20,049 nt of DNA from a virus: positions 1 to 20,049 of IMG/VR virus record IMGVR_UViG_3300030020_000121; one strand, 5' to 3'. Under the pieces are notes generated by a model. The model saw only the letters and a list, made by a program, of their open reading frames with translations. It made no database searches and was not told where the DNA came from. Position numbers and translations under genes: made by a program. The number at the start of each line of letters is the position of its first letter. Within the stretch, counting starts at the first letter, position 1. Shown here in pieces: positions 10,198-20,049 of the stretch.

Positions 10198-10629
10198 ATG
10201 GGCGTTTTATTCATTGATCGGGGCCGTATTACAATCAACGGAACTGAAGTCCTCGACATCGAGAACATCACCCTGAAGGTTTCTTACGGGACCAAGTATG
10301 TCCCGACCATGACGACCAACCGTCGTCATAAAGGAACCGTTAAGGGAAATTTGGACATCAATTTGAGTTTCTCAGTGGCCGTTCAGTCGACCCTTGGGAC
10401 CCCAAAGCTAGAGTCCATTGATTACAACTCCCAAGACGTGGCCCTGACTTTTGCTCACGGAGCGGACAGGTACACTTGCACGGGTCTTGATTTTGTCGAC
10501 GCCGATCAGTCCGCGGGTGGCGTGGGGTCTGAAGGTAAAAAGGCTTTCAACATGTTGGCCCTAGACATCATCGACCAAGTCGGGAATTCTGCTCTCTTTG
10601 CAACGTCTTTAGGACTTTTGACAACGTAA
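10198..10629 (+). CDS. Tail tube protein (Mu gpM-like)
   Basis: This 143-residue protein begins GVLFIDRGRITINGTEVLD, followed by GTKYVPTMTTNRRHKG and LDINLSFSVAV, a run of alternating beta strands typical of myophage tail tube subunits (Mu gpM is 118 residues). Stacked hexameric rings of this protein form the inner tube through which DNA passes. It follows the sheath gene by 13 bases, which is the universal order in contractile tails, and has an extremely strong ribosome binding site, as expected for a protein needed in over a hundred copies. No signal peptide or membrane segment is present. Confidence 0.88.
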   Translation: MGVLFIDRGRITINGTEVLDIENITLKVSYGTKYVPTMTTNRRHKGTVKGNLDINLSFSVAVQSTLGTPKLESIDYNSQDVALTFAHGADRYTCTGLDFVDADQSAGGVGSEGKKAFNMLALDIIDQVGNSALFATSLGLLTT

Positions 10630-10642
10630 GCTAGGATTTTGA

Positions 10643-11185
10643 ATGGGCCACGAAAAACATGAGCCAATTGAAACAATCGAGGACCGCCTTGCGAAATTTC
10701 GTGAAGGCGCTAGGTACGCCGGATCCCTTTCCTTTCGAGGACAGGTCGTCCACTTCAGAGTTTTGAGCAGATCTGAAGAGATGGAGATCAGACGTAAGGC
10801 CATCACGGCCTCCATGCATTATGGAGGGGATGAGACTGAGAAAAACAATTTCATCCAGATGTCGACTCTTCAATTGGCCAGTACACCAGTTGGCCCTAGT
10901 AAAGTCCCGAGTCTTCCGATTGCACTTTTGGATAAGATGACCAGTGATGAGCTCAAGTTTCTTTATGATGAGTACATCAAAATCATGGACGACGCGAACC
11001 CGTCGATTGAGAGAATTGGGACTGAAGAGTTCCGATCTCTCGTAGATCTGGTAAAAAAAAACGGGGTGGGGTCGAGAGACTTATCTTTAAAGCAGCTCAG
11101 GGCGATATTTATCGCATTTCAGGATTTGATCCAGCGAGTGGATTTCCAAACCTCACCGATGGACAGCTCCTCTGGTGGGCAGTGA
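10643..11185 (+). CDS. Tail assembly chaperone, short form (G-type)
   Basis: The 180-residue product lies between tube and tape measure genes, the fixed location of tail assembly chaperones. It is helical and acidic, with RVLSRSEEMEIRRKAI (39-54), LLDKMTSDELKFLYDEYIKI (95-114) and FRSLVDLVKKN (130-140). No catalytic motif is visible. Chaperones of this type bind the tape measure and recruit tube subunits and are absent from the virion. At codons 138-141 the gene carries nine A's (GTA AAA AAA AAC), a -1 slippery site. Ribosomes that do not slip finish at TGA 11183-11185; slipped ones continue to 11265 for a 207-residue fusion. TAGGA (10633-10637) serves the start. Confidence 0.8.
   Translation: MGHEKHEPIETIEDRLAKFREGARYAGSLSFRGQVVHFRVLSRSEEMEIRRKAITASMHYGGDETEKNNFIQMSTLQLASTPVGPSKVPSLPIALLDKMTSDELKFLYDEYIKIMDDANPSIERIGTEEFRSLVDLVKKNGVGSRDLSLKQLRAIFIAFQDLIQRVDFQTSPMDSSSGGQ
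11056..11062 (+). promoter_or_regulatory. Programmed -1 frameshift site (A AAA AAC)
   Basis: Nine A's (11053-11061) followed by C contain the heptamer A AAA AAC in the correct phase with the chaperone frame (codons AAA 11057-11059, AAC 11060-11062). The -1 frame is closed upstream (TGA 11023-11025) but open from 11026 to TAG 11263-11265, while the +1 frame stops within 10 codons. The downstream open frame has a plausible protein sequence. No obvious pseudoknot was picked out by eye. Confidence 0.8.
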
Positions 11186-11265
11186 TGAACAGGGCCGTCA
11201 ACGATCTCGAGGCTGAAGAGCACGAGAATCGAGTAAAAGAGGAGTCGGCGCAAAAAAGGGGATAG
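11062..11265 (+). CDS. Frameshift extension of the tail chaperone (T part)
   Basis: Read after a -1 slip at 11056-11062, this part adds 67 residues to the first 140 of the chaperone, giving a 207-residue G-T type fusion. The segment ISGFDPASGFPNLTDGQLL followed by WWAVMNRAVNDLEAEE and a charged tail is a convincing coding sequence, with an aromatic-rich helix and a Glu/Lys-rich end. A separate 26-codon frame from ATG 11185 (overlapping TGA of the short form as TGATG) lies within it and might be translated by re-initiation, but the longer conserved-looking segment upstream of that ATG argues for frameshifting. The fusion is thought to bind the tape measure protein, whose gene starts four bases later. 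It is seldom annotated because it has no start codon of its own. Confidence 0.78.
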   Translation, partial: RGGVERLIFKAAQGDIYRISGFDPASGFPNLTDGQLLWWAVMNRAVNDLEAEEHENRVKEESAQKRG

Positions 11266-11268
11266 ACC

Positions 11269-13059
11269 GTGTCTGATACCAAATTAGAAATGGATCTTGA
11301 CCCCAAAAAAGTCATCGCCTCCATGGCCGAGCTATCAAAAAAAGCTCAAGAGTTGGCCGATAAAATTGAAGAGTCTCTCGGCAAAGAAGCCGTCAAAAAC
11401 TTCAAAAAACTAGAAGATCAGTCAGAACAATCATCAGATAAAATCTCAACCATTTTTCGTAACCTCGGGAACCGACTCAAAGAAGACATGAAGAGTTTTC
11501 TCGGGGTCTCGGCCCTCGCTGAGGGGCTCAACATTGCCAAGGATCTAAAATCCGGGGCGCAACAAGTTTTTGAGATGGAAAAAGCTTTTGACCGACTCAA
11601 CACACGTTTGGGATTATCGGTTGATAAAATGAATGACTTCAAAAAATTGGTCGCCATGCGGGTCGCAGGGACTGGTCAGAAATTGGAGGACGTTCTTCCT
11701 GGTATGGAAAAAGCATCCTCTAAAGGTGGCGTAAAAGACACAGCACAATTGGCCAACATCGCCGAGACCTTGGGTCAGGCCAAGGGTATCAACAAAAACG
11801 AAAACACCGAGACACTGTCTGACACCGTGATTGAGATCCTTCAGAGACAAGGACAAAAGGTCACCTCTGAGTCCTTCAAAAAAACTCTGGATGCCCTTGA
11901 GGGTGGACGAGTGAAGGGGGCCTTTGGATCGGCCAGTGAAGTGGGAGACGTGGTCAAAGACATGGCCGCCGTGGCAAAAAAATCAGGCATGGGCACGCGT
12001 GAACTTGCGGGTTTAGCCGCCGTGGCCTCAAAAGGTGGCGAGGGTTCTGTCAATATCTTAAAACAACTCATGCAGCAGGGAGCAACCGTTGGTGGCCAGG
12101 AAAGATTGAATTCCACCTTGGGAGTTCAACTTTTTAAGAACGGAAAAATGGATGCCTCTCAGTTGGGAAAAATCGACACCGGAAGATTTGGTCAGTTTTC
12201 AGAACAGGCCATGGAAGGTGCGACGGGTCTTCACGGTTCCTCAGGTGCTGACCTGACACGACTGGCCGCGTCTTTTAAAGACAACATGGACGATTTTTCC
12301 AAGGTCGCCAGCGGGGCCAACGAAACTGCTGATCAGTTTGGAATCGCTGCCGACAACTTCAGCACAAAATTTGATCAGTTCAAAGAGCGACTCAAGGCCA
12401 CCGTCATGGTGGTCGGTGATGACCTGTCCAAGGCCGTCAACGAGTTCATGAAGGGAAACACCAAGGGTGGGATGAACTCTCTCGGACAGGCCGGCGGGGC
12501 CCTCTGGGAAAACAAAGGGGCCATCGCGGGCGGGGCCGGACTCATGGGTCTCTCAGCCCTTCTCATGGGTGGTGGCGCGTCACAACTTTTGGGCAAAATT
12601 CCGGGTGGTGGAATGCTCAAAGGAATGGCCGGAGGCGAGCTCGCAAAAGCCGCGGGGGCTACTCCCGTTTATGTCGTCAACGCTTCAGAAATCGGTGGTG
12701 GTGGGGCCATGGCCGGAAGTGGGGCAATGGGGATGATGGGCAAGGTCGGTGGTGGATTTGCGGCCCTCGGTGCGGGTATCGGGGTGGGGGAGCTTCTCAA
12801 TCACTGGGAACCATCTAAGAGACTCCTAGACTCGGTCGGCGATAAGGCCTTTGACATGTTTGGTCCCGACAAAAAAGACATCATGTCGTCTGCCGAAGGA
12901 AGTGCCAATGCGGTAGGAGCCTCGCGGTTCAACAAAGAAAACGGAACCAACCTTTCGGCCGAAGCGTTTGCCAAAGCCGTTGAAACGGGAACACTTCGGG
13001 CCATGATGAAACGACCCGTCCAAATGACCAATCCTTCAAACGTGAAAGGGGTGAGATAA
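11269..13059 (+). CDS. Tape measure protein
   Basis: This 596-residue protein begins with GTG, three bases after the chaperone extension's TAG, with AGGGGA (11257-11262) as Shine-Dalgarno. Residues 15-70 and 340-395 are strongly charged helices likely to coil, as in tape measures. Residues about 408-510 are Gly/Ala-rich and hydrophobic (GAIAGGAGLMGLSALLMGGG, GGFAALGAGIGVGELL), the part that can insert into the host membrane. VYVVNASEI (467-475) resembles strands near the end of other tape measures. It sets tail length, with about 1.5 angstrom per residue implying a tail somewhat under 100 nm (estimate). Location after the chaperone and before the hub genes is diagnostic. Confidence 0.85.
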   Translation: MSDTKLEMDLDPKKVIASMAELSKKAQELADKIEESLGKEAVKNFKKLEDQSEQSSDKISTIFRNLGNRLKEDMKSFLGVSALAEGLNIAKDLKSGAQQVFEMEKAFDRLNTRLGLSVDKMNDFKKLVAMRVAGTGQKLEDVLPGMEKASSKGGVKDTAQLANIAETLGQAKGINKNENTETLSDTVIEILQRQGQKVTSESFKKTLDALEGGRVKGAFGSASEVGDVVKDMAAVAKKSGMGTRELAGLAAVASKGGEGSVNILKQLMQQGATVGGQERLNSTLGVQLFKNGKMDASQLGKIDTGRFGQFSEQAMEGATGLHGSSGADLTRLAASFKDNMDDFSKVASGANETADQFGIAADNFSTKFDQFKERLKATVMVVGDDLSKAVNEFMKGNTKGGMNSLGQAGGALWENKGAIAGGAGLMGLSALLMGGGASQLLGKIPGGGMLKGMAGGELAKAAGATPVYVVNASEIGGGGAMAGSGAMGMMGKVGGGFAALGAGIGVGELLNHWEPSKRLLDSVGDKAFDMFGPDKKDIMSSAEGSANAVGASRFNKENGTNLSAEAFAKAVETGTLRAMMKRPVQMTNPSNVKGVR

Positions 13060-18703: not shown

Positions 18704-20049
18704 CTGGTTACAACTTGATAGGAAATTAGTCGACAAAACTGACCTCGAGTACACCGTTCAGGGGATGCAGGATCTTTTAGATCTCTACTCAGTCGCCCTT
18801 TACGGTCCTGGCGTTTTGATCTCTTCACTTTATCCAACTCCTTTTACGATCACCGGAGACACCGGGGACATGGGTGTTACGGTTGGTGACGGGATTGGTT
18901 TTGATACGGTCGGGAACTTCACCTCAATCATGCCTAGCCTCACCGGATCACCCGTCGCGACGCCGGCCGTTGGGGACCCTTCAAACCCCCGATGGGATCT
19001 TTTGGCCATTGAGTATCGACAAGTCGGGGACACCCTGATTCCGAAACCCTCAGATCCTTTGACAATGGTGGACCTCAATCTTCATGACGACTTTGCTTTG
19101 GTCATCGTCCCAGGAACGGCATCGGCAACACCAGCTTACCCGACCTATACGGGTCCAGGTTTTGTTTTGGCAGGCCTTCAGGTTCCTTCTGGGGCCACGA
19201 TGGGAAATCAAATTCTTATCGATTATTCTCAGAGAGTTTTTTCTCGATTCGGATTCTCTCAACAACCCGTTTTTGTCCAAGAAATTCCCACGGGCAATGT
19301 CGACGGAACCAACCAAGTGTTCACTTTATCGCAAACACCCATCACGACAGGGTCTTTGGATGTTTACAAAGACGGTGTGAAGCTTGGGGTGTCTCAATAT
19401 TCCTTGGCCGGAATGTCAATATCGATGTCTTTTGCTCCCAAATTGGGAGAGGTAATTTGGGCCAGTTACGTTGCGAATTCTCCAAACTCACAAAACCCCC
19501 TTCAGGCCGTCACCGAAACTCCGGCCGGAACCATTGATGGGACCAACCTTAAATTCGTTCTTGCACAAAAGCCCATTTATCAAGCGGCAACCAACGTCTA
19601 CATTGACGGTGTTTGGGTTGATCCGGATGTTTGGGGTCTGGTGTCGACTGCGGGAAATCAGTCTTACATTTTGTTCACCAACGGCTATCAACCTCAGCCT
19701 GGGGAAGCTCTTGAGGTTCAATATTGGCTTTTTACTTGGCCCAATCTGACCGCTGTTCCATCCACAAGTGGTGGTGGCGGAGTCACCCGAGAGATTCATG
19801 GAAGTTACACCTCGCCAATTGCAATTGACCCGACGGTGGGACTTGTTCCCTCGTCCGCTGCCGATCAGACGTGGTATGTGATTCCAAATGAACTCGGAAC
19901 ACAACTCATCACGGCATCTCCGGCGATTGCGCCCGGCACGACCATTGGCCAGAGAGTGGTTTACAAAGGAACTGACCCGGCGAACTGTCTGGAAATTCCT
20001 AGTGCATCTGGATCAGGAACAAATCAGAATGGGAGCTGCACGTTAACAA
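18690..20049 (+). CDS. Large tail fibre/baseplate-distal protein, partial, non-AUG start
   Basis: The frame is open from 18666 (after TGA 18663-18665) past the window end, giving 453 residues from ATT 18690. GGAGG (18681-18685) is followed four bases later by ATT, then TTA CAG CGT AAC TGG. The only ATG nearby is 18765, which would remove the conserved-looking RNWLQLDRKLVDKTDLEYTV segment. The N-terminal 180 residues include FVLAGLQVPSGATMGNQILI, beta-rich parts follow, then two repeats (residues about 202-260 and 280-345), then a Gly-rich linker and a segment with PGTTIGQRVVYKGTD like the intertwined tips of tail fibre proteins. It most likely binds the host or forms the baseplate-fibre junction. 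An indel or frameshift at the start is possible. Confidence 0.65.
   Translation, partial: MLQRNWLQLDRKLVDKTDLEYTVQGMQDLLDLYSVALYGPGVLISSLYPTPFTITGDTGDMGVTVGDGIGFDTVGNFTSIMPSLTGSPVATPAVGDPSNPRWDLLAIEYRQVGDTLIPKPSDPLTMVDLNLHDDFALVIVPGTASATPAYPTYTGPGFVLAGLQVPSGATMGNQILIDYSQRVFSRFGFSQQPVFVQEIPTGNVDGTNQVFTLSQTPITTGSLDVYKDGVKLGVSQYSLAGMSISMSFAPKLGEVIWASYVANSPNSQNPLQAVTETPAGTIDGTNLKFVLAQKPIYQAATNVYIDGVWVDPDVWGLVSTAGNQSYILFTNGYQPQPGEALEVQYWLFTWPNLTAVPSTSGGGGVTREIHGSYTSPIAIDPTVGLVPSSAADQTWYVIPNELGTQLITASPAIAPGTTIGQRVVYKGTDPANCLEIPSASGSGTNQNGSCTLT
19293..19469 (+). repeat. Tandem protein repeat, copy 1, in last ORF
   Basis: Residues about 202-260 read GNVDGTNQVFTLSQTPI, then VYKDGV, then PKLGEVIWASY. 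Shared positions with copy 2 are G.xDGTN..F.L.Q.PI, VY.DGV, P..GE and a final Y. The pattern fits a small immunoglobulin-like beta module common in phage adhesins. Confidence 0.6.
19527..19724 (+). repeat. Tandem protein repeat, copy 2, in last ORF
   Basis: Residues about 280-345 read GTIDGTNLKFVLAQKPI, then VYIDGV, then PQPGEALEVQY. It has about seven residues more than copy 1, placed between VYIDGV and the PxPGE turn, and a 19-residue linker separates the copies. Confidence 0.6.

Follow-up and report, generated by a model that had tools for sequence, protein, structure and literature searches.

A conserved nine-A run and a long overlap of two reading frames in a predicted tail assembly chaperone gene of an uncultured phage

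The window analysed here is a stretch of 20,049 bases from an uncultured phage (IMG/VR record IMGVR_UViG_3300030020_000121). Between the tail tube gene and the tape-measure gene it carries an ORF with a run of nine A's near its end, after which two overlapping frames stay open. Frameshifting in tail chaperone genes is a classic form of recoding and is conserved, and the locus raises the question of whether its gene is also read in two frames, what the two products would be and what slips on the run. A sequence-only reading had proposed a programmed −1 frameshift which yields a tail chaperone fusion, with a dual-coding stretch of about 120 bases. The features examined are given in Table 1.

Table 1. 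Features of the chaperone locus and their positions in the window
Feature	Position	Strand	Basis
Tail tube protein	10198..10629	+	Weak PHROG tail tube match; located after the sheath
Likely tail assembly chaperone, zero frame (G-like), 180 aa	10643..11185	+	ORF, fold model, position between tube and tape measure
Predicted slip site AAAAAAAAAC	11053..11062	+	Tandem in-phase heptamers; TAAAAAAAAA invariant in 8 lineages
−1 frame extension (T-like), 67 codons + TAG	11062..11265	+	Open in 8/8 lineages; conserved motifs
Dual-coding stretch, 40 zero-frame codons (GVGSRDLSLKQLR... tail) overlapped by −1 frame	11063..11182	+	Both frames conserved beyond nulls
Putative tape-measure protein, 596 aa, GTG start	11269..13059	+	Position and length

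The gene and its surroundings

The window encodes a Mu-type portal (PF06074, E 3e-34), and sheath and baseplate hub genes are also present. The gene of interest lies between the tail tube and the tape measure and the same order recurs in relatives, the match of the tube itself being weak; two relatives have tail tube proteins with 91% and 64% identity to that of the window. The tape measure is named from gene order, as this ORF has no meaningful match among the phage-tail families of Pfam or PHROG. The tail may be a short one, judging by the short ORF. At the far end of the window, an ORF (18765-20048) with 428 codons or more runs off the edge and perhaps encodes a tail fibre.

The zero-frame protein was modelled with medium confidence (pLDDT 69). 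Among its best BFVD matches are several that carry the name tail assembly chaperone (E 2e-3 to 4e-2), although TM-scores are low, and the first structural match in the PDB is the HK97 chaperone 2ob9, which is weak and not significant. An XkdN-like match (PF08890, phrog_389; E 0.002-0.04) was obtained for one relative only, L014, and at 14.8 bits it falls below the curated PF08890 cut-off of 27. A PDB sequence search with the profile returned nothing relevant. Each of these lines is weak individually, but together with gene order they make it likely that the zero-frame protein is a tail assembly chaperone, as had been proposed from the sequence.

The −1 extension gave less. Its model (79 residues, pLDDT 70) has no structural match and a PHROG scan assigned it to no family. 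The idea that it duplicates the helical unit of the chaperone was rejected following a negative profile comparison.

When annotated phages were searched by tblastn with the chaperone and the sheath nothing close was found, and scans of genome contigs with the same two proteins revealed no prophage relatives. None of the phages in the annotated collection is closely related to the lineage of the window. Relatives were recovered from metagenomes: one contig with an identical gene copy (L002) and seven diverged contigs (L005, L009, L013, L014, L016, L019 and L022), which together with the window make the eight lineages compared below. Five of the seven were recovered by sheath or tube searches independent of the chaperone gene, and their zero-frame identities to the window are 75% (L005), 45% (L009), 48% (L013), 43% (L014) and 40% (L016). 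The other two, L019 and L022, were found by searching with the chaperone; of the two patterns used in that search, one falls within the overlap.

The nine-A run and the two frames that follow it

The run occupies 11053-11061, is followed by a C, and no other A-run of the window reaches nine. In the zero frame it is read GTA AAA AAA AAC GGG, which places both A AAA AAA (11053-11059) and A AAA AAC (11056-11062) in the X_XXY_YYZ phase. Beyond the slip codon the zero-frame ORF continues for 40 codons to 11185, and this tail includes the peptides AIFIAFQDLIQR. The −1 frame opens at 11026 and continues to the TAG at 11263-11265, so that a slip would produce a fusion of 207 residues, and the tape-measure GTG at 11269 is located 3 bases past this stop. 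The coordinates given in the sequence-only reading hold, and its figures of 67 codons and a 207-residue fusion are correct.

Exactly nine A's, in the same codon phase and within TAAAAAAAAA, are found in all eight lineages, and the alignment is gap-free over the 139 columns that start just before the slip. The base after the run is C in six lineages, G in one and T in one. The length holds even in L019, at 56% GC, and in the GC-rich contig L009; given the amino acids and codon usage, and treating the lineages as independent, the expectation for an invariant A9 is approximately 4e-12. The −1 frame of every lineage is open to a stop at or near the tape-measure start. An absent run or stops in the −1 frame of relatives had been named as evidence against frameshifting, and neither was seen in the seven contigs.

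The first base of the run is informative with regard to what is conserved. It is a wobble position, kept as A in each lineage within GTA, CTA, TTA or ATA, and the product of the chances from codon usage is 1.3e-7. As A AAA AAC alone would leave base 11053 free, the constraint must involve either A AAA AAA or the run as a whole. Judged from this alignment, the conserved slip unit is the whole A9 run and not just A AAA AAC; the latter had been proposed as the slip signal and is indeed in phase, but it is not the sole one.

A second nine-A run is present in L005 (2028-2036), inside another ORF of the structural region (1683-2351) whose counterpart in the window has no A9. It probably arose by chance and may serve as a natural slippage control. 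It indicates that such runs can appear by chance, but not eight times at the same place.

The claim that both frames encode protein was examined against two nulls. Each zero-frame protein was held fixed while its codons were resampled by the usage of that contig, and the −1 translations were compared over 35 codons. Identity of the −1 protein was 47% against 20% under this null, with z about 21, or 14-20 with up to three lineages left out, these z-scores being inexact as the lineages are related. The −1 frame was open through the compared overlap in all eight, where the null averaged 1.5 and reached at most 5 or 6. In the reverse test, with the −1 protein fixed, zero-frame identity was 51% against 22% (z about 23, inexact for the same reason), and the zero frame was open in 8/8 lineages, where the null averaged 2.3. 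The +1 frame contains stops in every lineage.

Synonymous sites give the same picture. The same-codon fraction was 0.608 in the overlap where 0.309 was expected, and 0.353 upstream of the slip where 0.325 was expected, so constraint appears only from the slip onward and shared ancestry adds little upstream. The −1 frame carries the conserved motifs ER, F.A and LTxGQ..W. In L009, L014, L019 and L022 the zero frame stops 35 codons after the slip codon, so that W[WF], a motif of the −1 frame, is single-coded there, yet it is kept.

These results support the proposed dual coding: both frames of the overlap, of about 105-125 nt across the lineage, appear to encode conserved protein under selection, and the short chaperone would therefore carry its own conserved C-terminal tail. 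Comparative sequence evidence supports conservation of the slip site, use of both frames and gene order, with a fold that is probably chaperone-like. The case for a frameshift-type tail chaperone is well supported; it would be of an ordinary kind, and what is unusual about it is the invariant A9 and a long stretch that appears selected in two frames.

Ribosome or RNA polymerase as the slipping agent

We consider it probable that the gene encodes a frameshifted chaperone of the lambda G/GT type, made by a ribosomal −1 slip on the A9 run. Most ribosomes would stay in the zero frame and produce the 180-residue G-like protein. A minority would slip back one base on the nine A's, with the Lys tRNAs in the P-site and the A-site both re-pairing with AAA, and produce the 207-residue GT-like fusion, whose last 67 codons are from the −1 frame and whose stop adjoins the tape-measure start. 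If the roles are those known from lambda, the part common to both products would coat the tape measure, and tube protein would be brought in by the −1 extension at a set ratio. We infer the ribosome, rather than RNA polymerase, as the slipping agent, together with the slip efficiency and protein contacts of this scheme.

The same two proteins would result from slippage of RNA polymerase, where transcripts with ten A's (one added) are read into the −1 frame and transcripts with nine encode the short protein. We give this reading a lower but substantial probability. A homopolymer of about 8-9 or more A or T is expected of genes with transcriptional slippage and is present here in each lineage; its length is exactly nine throughout, the GC-rich contigs included, which is a length known to provoke efficient slippage of bacterial RNA polymerase (PMC5009743). 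Thermus thermophilus dnaX uses this length for slippage (PMC3711429) and resembles the window in its nine-A run and two C-termini; it differs in that slippage there is known to be transcriptional, the products are about 1:1 and the longer product is in the zero frame (PMC5009743). The variable base after the run (C, G or T) also points to the polymerase.

Evidence for a ribosomal stimulator was not obtained, which again fits the polymerase. A check for a folded RNA stimulator had been suggested, and the idea was rejected: no structure downstream of the slip stands out in the eight sequences (z-scores −1.0 to 1.3), nor do these sequences contain compensatory pairs or covariation in that region. 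Upstream of the slip, no conserved Shine-Dalgarno-like element was seen by eye. Both A_AAA_AAC and A_AAA_AAA shift far less readily in E. coli than A_AAA_AAG does (PMC5009743).

We nevertheless favour ribosomal slippage on two grounds, the ribosomal nature of known chaperone cases and the uniform direction of the shift. The chaperone cases reviewed in PMC5009743 are ribosomal and no transcriptional one was found in the literature searched. A uniform direction has been taken as favouring ribosomal over transcriptional slippage (PMC3711429), and the shift is always −1 across these lineages; this is a weak argument here, since the −1 protein itself fixes the direction. Polymerase slippage, whether acting alone or added to ribosomal slippage, is given the smaller share of our confidence. 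A tentative proposal that follows the polymerase reading is that the lineage might set its chaperone ratio mainly by slippage of RNA polymerase on A9, with 36-42 codons selected in two frames, giving the short chaperone its own conserved C-terminus. The invariant A9 allows a direct test of whether RNA polymerase, in place of the ribosome, does the slipping in some phages.

A separate gene in the −1 frame, initiated from a start of its own, is very improbable. The conserved −1 part has no ATG, GTG or TTG in the window, L005, L013 or L016; in the window the first such codon of this frame is at 11182, past the conserved part, and in L013 the entire −1 frame has none. GTG or TTG does occur inside the conserved part in L009, L014, L019 and L022, but a separate gene would leave the kept A9 run unexplained, and independent initiation was rejected as contradicted by the start codons of L013 and the window. 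Although homopolymers are error-prone, it is scarcely credible that sequencing or assembly introduced an error into a gene with a single frame, or that the gene is decaying. This reading was rejected, as the eight-lineage comparison contradicts it with the same nine A's across different metagenome records and lineages and with both frames conserved.

Comparison with known frameshifted tail chaperones

The ribosomal frameshift that we favour has its closest parallels in lambda and P2. As in lambda gpG/gpGT, the gene lies between the major tail protein and the tape measure, the −1 slip is in phase and the extension ends at the tape-measure start; lambda however slips on GGGAAAG, reaches its zero-frame stop after 15 nt and has an extension of 143 codons, against A9, 120 nt and 67 codons in the window. 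Phage P2 (gpE/gpE+E') shares the contractile tail, the sheath-tube-E-T order, the −1 slip and an extension of similar size (56 codons) that reaches the tape-measure start, and differs in slipping on T TTT TTG with 18 nt to the stop and almost no dual coding. Since the joined E+E' is annotated in the P2 record, as joined frameshift genes are elsewhere, the description of the fusion as 'unannotatable' was overstated.

Lambda and Mu had both been offered as precedents. The lambda layout is indeed shared, while a −1 shift in Mu is not borne out, as −2 frameshifting is reported for Mu (PMC5009743); the context of Mu gp41 is nonetheless similar, with a Mu-type portal (PF06074) and the sheath-tube-chaperone-tape measure order.

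The distance from slip heptamer to zero-frame stop is 15 nt in lambda, 18 in P2, 0 in xkdN of Clostridioides phage CD1801 and 120 in the window. Published averages are 26 nt for the SEA-PHAGES actinobacteriophages and 36 nt for the set of Xu and colleagues, which has 28 phages (PMC10885494). The overlap is therefore far longer than in lambda, P2 or these averages, in a comparison that covers lambda, P2, CD1801 and the two published sets, and rare cases of equal length may exist. Distance to the stop is among the features of the prediction tool PRFect, and part of what the tool misses is put down by its authors to longer distances (PMC10885494).

CD1801 xkdN resembles the window in having an in-phase A AAA AAC at the gene end and a −1 frame open for 57 codons to the tape-measure start, and differs in that its run is shorter and the heptamer abuts the stop, giving 0 nt of overlap. 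In this phage (MW512570.1) the gap between xkdN and the tape measure is unannotated, and the region L025:1740-1922 probably represents an unannotated chaperone frameshift.
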